The notes under the pieces were generated by a model that was given only the letters and a program-made list of their open reading frames with translations, did not search any database and was not told where the DNA came from. A stretch of DNA of 64,000 bases, taken from assembly GCA_027486585.1 (NCBI GenBank), contig JAIXOU010000100.1, forward strand, positions 124,001 to 188,000, read 5' to 3'. The position numbers were made by a program, and so were the translations under genes. Of the stretch, positions 24,176-35,042 are shown in pieces; positions within the stretch are counted from its first letter, which is position 1; each line of letters starts with the position of its first letter. The DNA is from Verrucomicrobiaceae bacterium (GTDB lineage: Bacteria > Verrucomicrobiota > Verrucomicrobiia > Verrucomicrobiales > Verrucomicrobiaceae).

Positions 24176-26791
24176 ATGCCAGACAGCATCTCCAATATCG
24201 TTTTTGGCAATGAGCAGCAATTGTTCAAACATTTGCTCCTAGAGGATGATGAACCCGCCGTGAAACTTGAGGACAAATGGATCGGCCCGTATCGGCTGAT
24301 GAAGCTTCTCGGTGAGGGTGGTTTTGGCCAAGTTTGGCTGGCTGAACAAAATGAGCCGGTGCGCCGTGAAGTGGCGCTGAAGCTACTTAAACGTGGCATG
24401 GACAGTGATCAGGTGCTGGCTCGTTTCAGTCTGGAGCGCCAAGCGCTGGCAAGCATGGATCATCCCAACATTGCTGCTCTGCTGGATGCCGGCAGCACGC
24501 CGGATGGACGTCCCTACTTTGTCATGGACTACGTGCAGGGAGTGCCAGTGACGACTTGGTGCCAAGAAAAACACGCCTCGATACGAGAAAACGTTGGGCT
24601 CTTTAAACAAATCTGCTCCGGGTTACAGCACGCTCATCAAAAGGGCATCATTCACCGTGATTTAAAGCCTTCCAATGTGTTGGTGACGGAAGTGGATGGT
24701 GTGGCCATTCCGAAGATCATTGACTTTGGGATTGCAAAAGCGACGAGCGATCAGTTCCAAGACCAGCCGTGGGTGACGCGGCAGGGTCATGTCATGGGCA
24801 CACCACTCTACATGTCCCCGGAGCAGTTGGCGGGTGGGCTGGACGTGGATACTCGGAGTGACATCTATTCTCTGGGCGTGCTGTTTTATGAGATGCTGAC
24901 GGGGACGGCTCCGCATGAAGGCAAGACCCATGCAAGCATGAGCCATGAAGAAATGCGAAGAATCGTGGATGAGACGCGGCCAATACGCCCTTCGGTTCAT
25001 TTGACTGAGCTGAAACGTCAGCGTGGTATTTTCACAAAAGTTCACGATCTCAAGTCTGAAAGCGCGCTGATCATTCCTGCCGATTTGGATTGGATCATTT
25101 TAAAGGCCTTGGAAAGGGATCGGGATCGCCGCTATGACAGCGCAGCGCTGATGGCGACGGACTTGCAGTGCTTTCTGAATGATGAACCGATTTTGGCGCG
25201 TCCGCCGACGGCTCATTATCTGGTCAGTCTGTGGATAAAGCGAAACAGCATTATCTTTGTTGCGGCCTGCATCTGTGCCCTGGCACTTTTGGTGGGAACA
25301 GGTCTGGCTCTCTGGCAGGCTCACGAAGCGCGTCAAGCTCAGGCCAGAGCCGAGACCGAGTCGCAGCGGGCTCGGCAGGCGGTGGACTTTTTGACGACGA
25401 TGCTAGATCGAGTGGCTGATGAGGTGGCCAATGGGCGCAATCCTGAAGCGCTCAAACTGGCCTTAGATGGCAGTCAGGAAAAGATCAGCCAACTCAAAAG
25501 CGACCCGCTGCTGCAAAGTGATCTCTTCAATCGAATCGGTTTGCTTTATCAAAAAATGGGTGAGCGCGGGCTGTCCATTCCCATGTTAAAAGCTTATGCC
25601 GATGCCATGGCGGCGCTTCACGGTCCTGATAGCCATGAAGCTTGGAATGCTGAGTTAACGTATCTCAGCCAAATGATGCAGCATGGCGCACGTATCCTGG
25701 TGCCAGAGATGCTGACCAATCTTTTAAACAGAATTGAAGCGGCTGGGCAAGGCGGAAAACCCCATTGGTTTAGTGGTCAGCGCTTGATGATTCAGATTTG
25801 GGGGAAGCTTCGAAAACCCGCCAAAGCCAGTAAGGTAGCCCATTTGGTGATTGAAGATCCGCGACTTGAAAGCGTTGTGTCTCCAACCCGCTTACTCATT
25901 AAGACGGCGTGTGCCAATGCCTTTGAGAGCACGAAAGAGTATGATCTTGCTGACAAGGTGTTGATGGATTGCCACCAGCTTTGTTTGAGTGATCCAAGCC
26001 TTACGGATAGGCTGCCATGGCTGGCTGAGCAGCGCTTAATTGTGCAGAAAAGTAAGGGTGATCATCGTAGAGGAGCTGAGCTTGCCAGGGAGCAAATCGC
26101 CATATTGAAATTTCAATCGAGTGGCAAAGATCCTTACCTTGTTAAGCTTCTGCTCAGACTGGCTGAGTTTGAAAGTGCCTTAAAGCATTCGACGGAGGCG
26201 ATTGCCATTTCGCGGGAGGCTCTCAAACTGGCAGAGGACTTAGCTCCATCACCGGAGGCTCTGAAGCTGAATTCCAATTTAGCCACTTTGCGCTCAGATC
26301 AAATGCTTGCTCAGTTCAGCATTGCCAATTACGAATACAAAGCAGGACACCGCGAAGAGGCTGTGCACATGTCACGCGAGGCTTATCGGATTGCAGATGA
26401 AGCGGGCAACAAATCGGATTTGGCCGAGGCCATGCTCTATTTAGCCCAAATGCTAGAGAAGACTGGCGATCTCGAGGGAGCCTATCAAACCTACGAGCTT
26501 CGGGAGCAACGTTCAGCTGCCGGAGGTGCAAACTATCAGCGCTGGCATGAGGACCTGAATTTCAGATGTGGTATCCGATTAAAACAAGGACGAGCGAAGG
26601 AAGCCATGATATTGGCCCAAGAACTTTGGTCGAGAGAAATCCAGAGCCCGGAGGCCCGAAAGGACACGGAACATCTGGGAGACGTCGCTACACTGGCGCT
26701 ACGCTGCCATGCTGCGTTACTGAAGCAAGATCCCAAAACGCCCGCTCCCGTTGAGCTGTTAGAATGGCAAAAGCTGCGGAATGGGAAGTGA
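24176..26791 (+). CDS. Membrane-anchored serine/threonine protein kinase with TPR-like sensor region
   Basis: An 871-residue Hanks-type kinase. The kinase domain covers residues 39-340 with GEGGFGQV (46-53), the ATP-binding Lys69 (VALKLL), HRDLKPSN (catalytic Asp162, Asn167), DFG at 183-185, and the activation segment ending in GTPLYMSPEQ. A single membrane helix (about 359-380) separates it from an extracytoplasmic region of about 490 residues rich in helical repeats resembling TPRs (LFNRIGLLYQKMGERGLS, AEAMLYLAQMLEKTGDLEGA). All catalytic residues are intact. The preceding gene encodes an ECF sigma factor 8 bases upstream, the likely phosphorylation target. The external signal is unknown. 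Confidence 0.93.
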   Translation: MPDSISNIVFGNEQQLFKHLLLEDDEPAVKLEDKWIGPYRLMKLLGEGGFGQVWLAEQNEPVRREVALKLLKRGMDSDQVLARFSLERQALASMDHPNIAALLDAGSTPDGRPYFVMDYVQGVPVTTWCQEKHASIRENVGLFKQICSGLQHAHQKGIIHRDLKPSNVLVTEVDGVAIPKIIDFGIAKATSDQFQDQPWVTRQGHVMGTPLYMSPEQLAGGLDVDTRSDIYSLGVLFYEMLTGTAPHEGKTHASMSHEEMRRIVDETRPIRPSVHLTELKRQRGIFTKVHDLKSESALIIPADLDWIILKALERDRDRRYDSAALMATDLQCFLNDEPILARPPTAHYLVSLWIKRNSIIFVAACICALALLVGTGLALWQAHEARQAQARAETESQRARQAVDFLTTMLDRVADEVANGRNPEALKLALDGSQEKISQLKSDPLLQSDLFNRIGLLYQKMGERGLSIPMLKAYADAMAALHGPDSHEAWNAELTYLSQMMQHGARILVPEMLTNLLNRIEAAGQGGKPHWFSGQRLMIQIWGKLRKPAKASKVAHLVIEDPRLESVVSPTRLLIKTACANAFESTKEYDLADKVLMDCHQLCLSDPSLTDRLPWLAEQRLIVQKSKGDHRRGAELAREQIAILKFQSSGKDPYLVKLLLRLAEFESALKHSTEAIAISREALKLAEDLAPSPEALKLNSNLATLRSDQMLAQFSIANYEYKAGHREEAVHMSREAYRIADEAGNKSDLAEAMLYLAQMLEKTGDLEGAYQTYELREQRSAAGGANYQRWHEDLNFRCGIRLKQGRAKEAMILAQELWSREIQSPEARKDTEHLGDVATLALRCHAALLKQDPKTPAPVELLEWQKLRNGK

Positions 26792-32573: not shown

Positions 32574-35042
32574 TTACTGTGCTTCATTCACGGTCGCATC
32601 AGTTGCCGAGCCGACGAGTTTGATGACTTGGCCGCCATTGGATTGATTTGGCGCAGGCGGTGTTGCCTGAACTGGTTGCGGGGCTGGTTTTGGCGTGACT
32701 TGGCCTTGCTTGAACTTCGCAATCTCTTCTGCAGACGGCATGATGGCTTTGCGAATGATAACTGGATTTGGCACCGTGACTGGAGCTGGCGGAGTTATCG
32801 GTACAGCGCTTGCAGGTGGATTTGGCTTCGCTGATGCAGGAGGTGTGCTGACCATCGCGCTTGGTGTTTCTTTCTTGGGAGCTTCTTTGGGTGGTTCCGT
32901 TTTGGCTATGGTTGTTTTTTGTGGCTCGGCTGCTTTTGGCTCGGGCATGACCGGAGGTTTTACCTTTGCTGCTACATCCACATTCGCGGGCTCGGATGCT
33001 ATGGGCGGGGTGTTTGTCACCTTTGGGGTGACAACTGGCTCCGTAGGTTTGATTCCCGGCGCTGTGATGGGTTTTTCGGTCTGTGTGTTGAGAGATGGGA
33101 TGGCGAGATCGCTGGTCGATGGCGCACTAGGACGAGAACTCAGCCACCAGGCGAGCATGCCGAAAATCACGACGGCAGCCGCAGCCCAAACTGGCCAAGC
33201 CGATTGACGTTTGCTTGAGCGATGGTCGAATTCATGGGCGTGAAGCCTACGGGAGATCGGGCTGACATCGTCATGCTCCTCAAACATAGTGGATTCATCA
33301 TCGTCAAAATCTGAAACGCTGCCAACGCTTTCCATCTCTTCCAGAGCAACATTACTGCCACGTAATCTAGTGGCCAGATCGCTTGTGGCCGGGGCTGCTA
33401 GGAGAGCATCAAAACGCTCTAAAAACTCGCTAGGACTTGGCGTGTCGCCGTTCTGATTGGCAATCTCCAAGGTCTGACGAATGTACAGGCTGAGTGATTC
33501 TGGAATCGTTTCCGGGAAGGCTGAAGCTTCCCTTGGATTCCTTTCTCCCGTCAGCAAGTAGGCGGCTAAAGCAACAAAAGAGCGGTGTCTGTGCTCGCGA
33601 TCTTTTTGATGAGCTCCTTCGTAGGCTGATGAATCAGGTGTTTCAACAAGAGGAGCCTCGTAAAGATGGCGCATCGTGAGATGGGCACGCACTTTGACTA
33701 AAAAGGGCGGCCAAGCGTCGATACGCTTTTGCAAAAGACGATCCAATTCACGGGCTTGCAGTCCACCACCTTTGCCAACTTTCAAAAAGATGTTTGAAGG
33801 GTGCAGATCAATTTTATCAACGGAGCAGTCTAATGCCTGATCAAGCGCCGAGCGAGTCTGCCGTAGCAGGATGGATACCTCAGCAGGATTCAGGGTTAAA
33901 CGATCCATGAGTAGCCGACTCAGGGTGAATCCTGGATCACGCTCTTCTGTTAAAAAGCTCCACTCATTGCTCTCCCATAGGCTGAGGCTGCGGAGAATGT
34001 GCGGGTGCTTGTCTGGACTGAAGCGCCAGCTTTGAAGAGGGACGGCATCGTAGTTTGCCTTCTCGATTAATCTGGAAGGTGGAAGCAGGTGAACGGTGAT
34101 GGGCTGATCGTTTTTGACGCTCAGACAAGGAATGGCAAACGGGTATTGGCGGGCATTGTCTTCTTCTGCAATGCGGAAGCGGTTGCCAAGAATTTTCTCC
34201 ACAGAAACACCATCCAACAATAAACTTTGCAATTGTGAATGCGGCTGAAGCGTGGTGGTGGCCAGCAATTGCTTGCGAGCTGTGCGCATCTGAATGCTGC
34301 TGACTTGAGCGCTGTGAGCTTCTTTGATGTCTTCACGCAACCTTTCCAGTGAGTTAGGCGCATTGCCTCTTTCTGTCAGCGCTGCACGCACGGTCGTGCG
34401 CAGATTGCCTGGCAGGGAAGTCATGGTTGGAAAGCGGTCAGGGTTTTCTCCCGCATAAACCTGTCCTGTGAGCATGAGGAAAAGAACCTCGCAAATTTGC
34501 TGCACTTGGTAGGCTGCATCAGTCTCTTGGTTTTCCGGTAAGGATAGACCAAAGTCACAGACGCGGAGCTGGAGGAAGGTGTCCTCGATCGCTGTGATCA
34601 TGACCTTATCAAACTGCATTTGCAGAGGCAGTGATTGCCTCCGCAGTGTGCTTGTCAGGTCGTTTAAAAGATTCAGAAGAAGTGAATAGACCGTGGCTGG
34701 TGGAAGAGCTCCACGACGCTGAATGTAGTCAGTCAGAAACTCTCCGTCATTCAGATTGCTCGTGTAATAGATCAATCCCTGATCTTCACCCGATTCCAGA
34801 ATGCTCATGAAGCTCCCGGACTTAAATTGCATCGCCTGCCTGATCCGATCCATGGCAATACGTCGATCATTCCCAATGAGAGGTCTGCCTGCGCTGAGGA
34901 CATGTAGCTCGACCAGCCTACCAATTTGTGTGTCAAAGGCGAGAAACACCATTTCCTCAGCTGAACGCACAACGCGCACCGGCTCGCCCGAAGCACGGCG
35001 GGCGATGGTGAGGTGTCCGAAGCTTTCGAGATCAGCGGCCAT
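32574..35042 (-). CDS. Single-pass membrane protein with tandem pseudokinase-like domains
   Basis: An 822-residue protein. Two protein-kinase-like regions lie in the cytoplasm-facing part. The first (about 20-250) keeps VCDFGLSLPE (163-165 as DFG) and a QICEVLFLMLTG helix, but has no HRD loop and has His47 where the ATP lysine should be (VELHVL). The second (about 285-550) keeps KIDLHPSNIFL, matching the catalytic loop with Asp412 and Asn417, but has His318 at the lysine position (ITVHLL) and no DFG. An acidic stretch (575-595) precedes one membrane helix (about 615-634), followed by a proline/lysine/threonine-rich exported tail of about 190 residues. It is probably a scaffold or regulator rather than an active kinase. 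It is convergent with the amidohydrolase gene and divergent from the MFS gene. Confidence 0.75.
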   Translation of the reverse strand: MAADLESFGHLTIARRASGEPVRVVRSAEEMVFLAFDTQIGRLVELHVLSAGRPLIGNDRRIAMDRIRQAMQFKSGSFMSILESGEDQGLIYYTSNLNDGEFLTDYIQRRGALPPATVYSLLLNLLNDLTSTLRRQSLPLQMQFDKVMITAIEDTFLQLRVCDFGLSLPENQETDAAYQVQQICEVLFLMLTGQVYAGENPDRFPTMTSLPGNLRTTVRAALTERGNAPNSLERLREDIKEAHSAQVSSIQMRTARKQLLATTTLQPHSQLQSLLLDGVSVEKILGNRFRIAEEDNARQYPFAIPCLSVKNDQPITVHLLPPSRLIEKANYDAVPLQSWRFSPDKHPHILRSLSLWESNEWSFLTEERDPGFTLSRLLMDRLTLNPAEVSILLRQTRSALDQALDCSVDKIDLHPSNIFLKVGKGGGLQARELDRLLQKRIDAWPPFLVKVRAHLTMRHLYEAPLVETPDSSAYEGAHQKDREHRHRSFVALAAYLLTGERNPREASAFPETIPESLSLYIRQTLEIANQNGDTPSPSEFLERFDALLAAPATSDLATRLRGSNVALEEMESVGSVSDFDDDESTMFEEHDDVSPISRRLHAHEFDHRSSKRQSAWPVWAAAAVVIFGMLAWWLSSRPSAPSTSDLAIPSLNTQTEKPITAPGIKPTEPVVTPKVTNTPPIASEPANVDVAAKVKPPVMPEPKAAEPQKTTIAKTEPPKEAPKKETPSAMVSTPPASAKPNPPASAVPITPPAPVTVPNPVIIRKAIMPSAEEIAKFKQGQVTPKPAPQPVQATPPAPNQSNGGQVIKLVGSATDATVNEAQ

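Follow-up and report, generated by a model that had tools for sequence, protein, structure and literature searches.

A tandem pseudokinase encoded next to the bacterial tubulin genes in many relatives of Prosthecobacter

What task may be assigned to a membrane protein that carries two kinase-like regions, neither of which appears equipped for catalysis? The question is raised by a gene in a stretch of 64,000 nucleotides (the window in the following) from a Verrucomicrobiaceae bacterium (assembly GCA_027486585.1, contig JAIXOU010000100.1), a relative of Prosthecobacter. An initial annotation described a tandem pseudokinase with complementary halves of the catalytic machinery and proposed duplication followed by reciprocal loss, possibly leading to one composite or purely regulatory unit. 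The DFG, the KIDLHPSN motif and the two histidines on which that description was built are all present in the 822-residue product (Table 1). The gene adjoins bacterial tubulin genes in many relatives and its product may therefore hold or control tubulin filaments at the membrane.

Table 1. Features of the tandem pseudokinase gene (positions are counted from the first nucleotide of the window)
Feature	Position	Strand	Remarks
Tandem pseudokinase gene, A-type	32574..35042	minus	822 aa, ATG start, stop included
Pseudokinase domain 1, residues 1-247	34302..35042	minus	predicted fold and profile match
His47 at the place of the ATP-binding (VAIK) Lys, domain 1	34902..34904	minus	alignment
DFG, residues 163-165, domain 1	34548..34556	minus	preceding HRD Asp absent, Gln141 in its place
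Pseudokinase domain 2, residues 284-548	33399..34193	minus	predicted fold and profile match
His318 at the place of the ATP-binding Lys, domain 2	34089..34091	minus	alignment
KIDLHPSN, residues 410-417, degenerate catalytic loop of domain 2 (Asp412, His414, Asn417)	33792..33815	minus
Arg452-Ala453-His454 at the putative place of the lost DFG, domain 2	33681..33689	minus	placed by alignment
Predicted single membrane span, residues 618-636	33135..33191	minus	hydropathy
Proline-rich tail, residues 637-822, 39 of 186 residues Pro	32577..33134	minus	probably periplasmic
Conserved tail motif IIRKAIMPSAEEIAKFKQGQV, residues 762-782	32697..32759	minus

Two predicted kinase folds with incomplete catalytic sets

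Modelling predicts that the gene encodes the bilobal kinase fold twice over. The AlphaFold2 model of residues 1-560 (pLDDT 82.7, pTM 0.82) was calculated from an alignment of 43 homologous rows, termed A2, from which L046, being 99% identical to the window, and the second fragment of L069 had been removed. It contains two kinase folds, rather than one or none. Residues 1-246 match PknA (4x3f; Z 19.2, rmsd 2.9, 230 residues aligned) and residues 284-548 match Pim1 (8r0q; Z 17.2, rmsd 3.5, 224 residues aligned). Modelled by itself, domain 2 reached a Z score of 17.9 to Pim1 and PknI; the single-domain alignments A3 and A4 comprised 18 of the 43 A2 rows. Profile searches against the PDB point in the same direction, with Staphylococcus aureus PknB for domain 1 (E=5e-9) and StkP for domain 2 (E=9e-6). 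With PF00069, the single sequence was matched in the second domain only (residues 345-421), at 22.2 bits and hence below the cut-off of 31.7 bits, which the orthologue at locus L004 exceeds (34.3 bits). This was the sole family matched in a Pfam scan at E values up to 5, and PASTA domains were not among the matches. The NCBIfam model PknB_PASTA_kin covers residues 32-167 at 8.8e-7; the score of 28.3 bits compares with an equivalog cut-off of 450 bits for NF033483 (PknB/PASTA kinases). A canonical Ser/Thr kinase encoded in the same window (24176-26791, plus strand) with VALK, HRDLKPSN and DFG motifs was detected by PF00069 at 155.9 bits, so that the method works on this window. Weak C-terminal TPR matches were seen in that canonical kinase.

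A scan of public genomes yielded 43 loci, 36 of the A-type and seven of the B-type, the titles of which mostly read Prosthecobacter or Verrucomicrobiaceae. Broken A-type copies are present at three of the 36 loci (L054, L063, L069). We examined 35 genomes of the genus and found in most of them, as well as in the window's own genome, a deeper, C-type paralogue of about 25% identity. C-type genes live without btub genes, and no conserved neighbourhood was found in the C-type loci read. The B-type paralogue (L080, L084-L088) has a basic C-terminus and a conserved neighbourhood of its own, with gene c11 on the 5' side and c12 and c13 on the 3' side, none of which was named by any search. At an order-level locus, a DnaK-like gene and a gene for a weak DnaJ-domain protein (L106:3117-6565, plus strand) are situated about 2.3 kb from the tandem pseudokinase gene, and the DnaJ-domain protein exhibits slight similarity to c3 (E=4e-5), a protein described below.

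Residues were counted in 36 A-type rows including the window, with gapped rows omitted from each count. The histidines at both ATP-binding lysine places are strictly kept (His47 in 35 of 35 rows, His318 in 36 of 36), and lysine occurs at neither place in any A-type row. The assignment of these places rests on profile alignments of His47 with the ATP-binding lysine of PknE and PknB and on a domain-domain comparison in which His318 aligns with His47. As originally described, domain 1 retains DFG without the HRD aspartate: D163 and G165 are present in all 36 rows and the place of the catalytic aspartate is taken by R (18), Q (10), K (2), G (2) or H, S, N and L (1 each), never by D. Domain 2 displays the converse, as had also been noted. 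H414 is found in 36 and N417 in 35 of 36 rows, and the place of the DFG aspartate is occupied by P (23), A (9) or T (3) in 35 of 35. The equivalents of Arg452 and His454 are kept in 35 of 35 rows of the alignment. The conservation expected of Asp412 holds in part, with D in 31, E in four and A in one of 36 rows. The VAIK lysine, the HRD aspartate and the DFG aspartate of an active Ser/Thr kinase are not united in either domain of the protein, and no A-type row has such a normal set in either domain. In both domains, a predicted kinase fold is combined with a loss of catalytic residues that is conserved across orthologues, which defines a pseudokinase. Since the pattern of loss is conserved, we regard the protein as a tandem kinase inactive by motif; it is apparently catalytically dead in both domains.

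A wider set of 29 rows comprised the A, B, C and order-level types and single rows of G167, G201 and the genus g16. The histidine of domain 1 is kept in 28 of these and is therefore a deep feature of the family, while His318 and Asp412/Asn417 are largely confined to the A and B types. Five C-type and four order-level rows lack His318 as well as Asp412/Asn417. In the g16 row, Asp and Asn are kept and Gln replaces His318; the outlying row L127 reads LH at the His318 place. For the kinase region of the window and of G003, dN/dS is 0.09, indicating purifying selection; the synonymous distances of several other pairs were saturated.

These observations bear directly on the proposal that the two half-sets form one active site, with the DFG aspartate contributed by domain 1 and the catalytic Asp and Asn by domain 2. 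Most A-type rows do have this distribution of residues. Deep relatives, however, lack the second half-set, and Asp412 varies even within the A-type, and for these reasons a composite active site is disfavoured. Both domains are moreover modelled as complete, separate folds, and the half-sites would therefore sit in different pockets. We consider a composite kinase extremely improbable; this reading and that of reciprocal loss were rejected on conservation in the 36 A-type rows and the 29-row set. An origin by duplication is unproven: hhalign of domain 1 with domain 2 gave E=0.012 and a probability of 3.5%, and with such weak similarity two separately acquired kinase domains are conceivable. 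A related reading is that domain 1 or 2 still binds nucleotide or metal, or catalyzes a non-canonical transfer with histidine at the lysine place. The strict conservation of His47, Asp163, Gly165, His318, His414 and Asn417 is indeed more than a free scaffold would call for. Against this stand the dispersal of Lys, catalytic Asp and DFG Asp, which neither domain unites, the replacement of Asp412 by Glu or Ala in five of 36 rows and the absence of the domain-2 set in C-type and order-level rows, and we judge residual binding or transfer to be very unlikely.

The description as a single-pass membrane protein with a proline-rich tail agrees with the hydropathy prediction, from which the span is taken, and with tail composition. 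At the hydropathy threshold used, no span is seen in the near-full-length orthologues L048 and L049, and a further hydrophobic segment appears within the kinase region of L059, L060 and L081. Motifs similar to the one near the end of the tail occur in most A-type rows that extend so far; the search pattern gave no match in L071 and L075. In six of the seven B-type rows, a shorter version is found at the extreme C-terminus, and the seventh row is cut.

PknB consists of a cytoplasmic kinase part, one membrane span and an outer tail, a layout also predicted for the pseudokinase. Hanks-type Ser/Thr kinases such as PknA, PknB, PknI and StkP have the fold predicted for both domains at remote sequence similarity. 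The protein described here differs from them by its two domains, incomplete catalytic sets, lack of a PASTA match and proline-rich tail. In Rv3910 (MviN), one pseudokinase is coupled to an MviN/MurJ part with several membrane spans. This bacterial pseudokinase (3oun) has the same fold, with a Z score of 17.0 to domain 1, whereas in our case a tandem is placed on one predicted span and the protein does not belong to the MviN/MurJ type. In tandem kinase-pseudokinases of the Yr15 and obscurin type, one domain is usually active, whereas here both lack catalytic residues. Two kinase-fold domains per chain are likewise reported for plant Yr15 and animal obscurin.

Gene order at the bacterial tubulin locus

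The gene btubA is located directly 3' of the pseudokinase gene and on the same strand at 22 of the 36 A-type loci. It is absent from this position at ten, including L081 where only 801 bp are readable, and the contig ends in the gene at four. The distance between pseudokinase gene and btubA ranges from 134 to 345 bp with a median of 263 bp (20 loci measured). In 20 of the 22 linked loci btubA is followed by btubB and bklc; at L060 and L061 the match breaks off. At L061 btubA was matched in part, and at L056 it is broken in frame. The gene names were checked: the BtubA encoded in the window's genome is matched to 2bto with E=3.5e-280, and the bklc product of L057 to 5o01 with E=1e-157.

On the 5' side of the linked block, c3 is present in many loci and also at L076, and other genes are found at L059, at L060, at L061/L064/L079, at L070, at L071/L073/L075 and at L074, i.e. 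at least six different ones. Because the 5' neighbours vary, the block has been kept while its flanks change. The c3 gene (L057:6161-7714, plus strand) encodes a protein of 518 residues; a Pfam scan of one copy gave no family match. Homologues of c3 exist in most genomes of the genus, in some of them away from btub. The constant neighbours in the linked loci read are btubA, btubB and bklc, and none of these loci has a kinase gene as a fixed neighbour.

Linked pairs are not restricted to Prosthecobacter but also occur in other genera of the family (G060, G106, G123, G165, G171, G179, G192). In G167, which belongs to another family and has a BtubA of 64% identity, a pseudokinase gene of 25% identity resides between btubA and another tubulin-like gene. 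The latter (L121:3476-4951, minus strand) shares 33% identity with BtubA and matches PF00091 at 4e-40. Proteins of about 600 residues with a tubulin/FtsZ-like GTPase region (about 30% identity to BtubA) are encoded in G053, G044 and G050 (L111:8625-10556, minus strand; L112:6149-7930, plus strand; L113:8890-10656, minus strand). The region matches PF00091 at 1.2e-20 in the L111 protein, the one scanned, and lies behind a weak helix-turn-helix match, such that a tubulin-like transcription factor is possible.

In the window's genome, btubA, btubB and bklc reside on a contig other than that of the pseudokinase gene, and it is for this reason that the linkage was invisible to the initial annotation. 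Separation was read at the btub loci of six genomes of the window's clade (G000, G009, G018, G019, G024, G034), in which the pseudokinase gene is not at the btub locus; G018 contains two btub operons in addition to its unlinked pseudokinase gene. In this clade the pseudokinase gene has been split from the tubulin operon, and the window's genome retains both. Its position off the btub locus in these six genomes could explain why the gene has been overlooked.

Published accounts of Prosthecobacter present the locus as btubA, btubB and bklc/btubC only, as far as the accessible parts of PMC5372463, PMC3232192 and PMC9871819 go; the last describes btubA/B plus btubC. The pseudokinase gene shares genomes with this locus and lies directly upstream of it at the 22 linked loci given above. 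The words "kinase" and "upstream" are absent from the main text of PMC5372463 and of PMC3232192. The available portion of PMC3232192 mentions two btub operons for P. debontii, and that of PMC13394414 treats tubulin evolution. No match was obtained in the accessible text of PMC7203096, and that of PMC12283558 contains nothing on these genes. The consulted part of PMC9871819 describes FtsZ-like (Tubulin_2) proteins of planctomycetes that carry a kinase domain at the N-terminus; there a kinase-like part is fused to an FtsZ-like protein, whereas here the genes are separate, the tandem kinase is inactive and the tubulins are eukaryote-like. Nowhere does the literature found, as far as its text was available, join this pseudokinase to bacterial tubulin, and an earlier mention of the open reading frame in a btub gene-walking study is possible. 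Pilhofer et al. 2007, a study of this kind on btub operons, could list the open reading frame beside btub. What is new here is the gene context, i.e. the pseudokinase beside btubA.

Distribution and history of the linkage

BtubA (E<=1e-100) was detected in 44 of 386 genomes of the order searched and in nine of 50 genera. For the pseudokinase, a first genome search was complemented by 29 chosen genomes, and btub-less genomes outside the genus were covered in part, by these and by the order members of the first search. It is present in 41 of the 44 btubA-containing genomes: 22 stem from the first search and 17 from the 29 chosen genomes, to which G021, where it was found by its tail at a contig end, and G167 with its divergent copy are added. 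The gene adjoins btubA in 27 of these 41. In 12 genomes, the window's own included, the two genes are on different contigs or at a large distance from each other; six of these were judged by reading around btub, and G057, G058, G142, G151, G162 and G195 were assigned by coordinates alone. In G020 and G213 btubA runs off the contig, and these were counted neither as linked nor as unlinked. An A-type copy was not found in the btubA-containing genomes G005 and G201, so the pseudokinase does not accompany btubA without exception. G174, in which the contig starts 252 bp before btubA, was not counted as present or absent. On contig C334 of G201 (L122), a btubA of about 60% identity, a btubB-like sequence and a distant bklc (31%) occur without an adjoining pseudokinase gene; its tubulins fall well outside the genus.

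Within the genus (48 genomes), 33 of 34 btub-positive genomes possess the pseudokinase compared with five of 14 btub-negative ones (Fisher p=1e-5, in a test that ignores shared ancestry). Some btub-negative assemblies in this count are poor (G022 52%, G006 74% and G032 78% complete). The five btub-less genomes with the gene are G003, G006, G025, G010 with a broken copy and G031 with a copy cut by the contig end. Degenerate btubB fragments lie beside an intact bklc in G031 (C108:50218-50684), and in G012 btubA is spread over two frames (C74:23639-25056), reflecting assembly error or decay. In G013 the pseudokinase gene, btubA and btubB are all missing and c3 and bklc are about 170 bp apart; as the three genes are contiguous elsewhere, one deletion suffices to explain this arrangement.

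In the tree of A-type proteins, from which L066, L077 and the second fragment of L069 were excluded and to which three rows were added, the 12 unlinked rows require two changes and the 22 linked rows three. The means after shuffling were 10.7 and 15.0, and none of 500 shufflings was as low. When outside rows are included in the tree, the B-type is placed within A, and rooting of the A tree with B-type rows was therefore discarded as unsafe. The four unlinked rows used in that tree form one clade (100/98) among linked ones, and unlinked rows are nested among linked rows in both trees. Linkage would thus most simply be ancestral in A and have been lost once, in the window's clade. It has probably been gained once, and the linked loci consequently do not represent independent trials.

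Two genomes of genus g16, G077 and G059, make up a special case. No BtubA was found in them at 1e-100, and an A-like pseudokinase gene (33.5%) adjoins a bklc homologue (36-37%). The Bklc rows of both group with Btub-linked Bklc rather than with background TPR proteins (99/98), but their branch is very long (2.71). The bklc homologue is a moderately better match (E=1e-35) than the second-best TPR gene in that genome (E=6e-31). The pair may be what is left of a locus after loss of the tubulins, or it may represent an older state.

A possible role at the membrane

The fold, the motifs and the linkage were computed here, and from these we infer a function. On balance, we favour the view that the tandem pseudokinase is a hitherto unrecognised partner of bacterial microtubules, a transmembrane scaffold that acts together with Bklc. 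The cytoplasmic pseudokinase pair would bind Bklc and/or Btub filaments and be fixed in the inner membrane by the single span. From there the tail, rich in proline and with a conserved motif near its end, may cross the periplasm to a partner in the envelope. In this way the pseudokinase might anchor, place or nucleate filaments, or report their state, at the membrane. Its location beside btub, and beside bklc even where tubulin is missing, fits such a scaffold holding the system at the membrane. Binding of Bklc to both Btub filaments and lipid vesicles has been reported (PMC5372463, accessible part), and the available text of PMC3232192 describes Btub filaments that are located mainly in the stalk or at the stalk base and run parallel to the membrane.

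The gene could also encode a stand-alone envelope or signalling pseudokinase that shares no function with btub and whose place beside it is a chance gene order passed on by descent. There are indeed C-type paralogues and order-level relatives without BtubA, one clade has separated the two loci and G005 has btubA without the pseudokinase. The gene persists in the btub-less genomes G003, G006 and G025, and purifying selection acts on it in G003, so that some function need not involve tubulin. Against mere accident stand the retention of the block amid changing flanks across genera and in one further family, the persistence of the pseudokinase gene beside bklc without tubulin, and the lack of a comparable constant neighbour of the C-type genes in the loci read. 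We regard the stand-alone explanation as rather improbable. Pseudokinases often regulate active kinases allosterically, and the protein could control an active Ser/Thr kinase in trans, for example the canonical membrane kinase encoded about 6-7 kb away in the window, and thereby growth of envelope or stalk. The near gene order of that kinase is kept in btub-less G003 (L097). The missing fixed kinase gene beside the pseudokinase in the linked loci read speaks against such control, which appears unlikely to us.

Returning to the scaffold beside the filaments, one may speculate further that btubAB, once acquired, were inserted into a verrucomicrobial membrane module that pseudokinase and Bklc had formed earlier, the dead-kinase scaffold turning into a membrane anchor or nucleation site for microtubules. 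The pairs in G077 and G059 would then be ancestral and not relics, a scenario that we put forward as doubtful.

Bacterial microtubules are known from few bacteria, and the accessible literature describes one accessory protein, Bklc. A conserved transmembrane pseudokinase at the btub locus would be the second. It could explain how filaments are held along the stalk membrane and would offer a testable entry to the function of these filaments.
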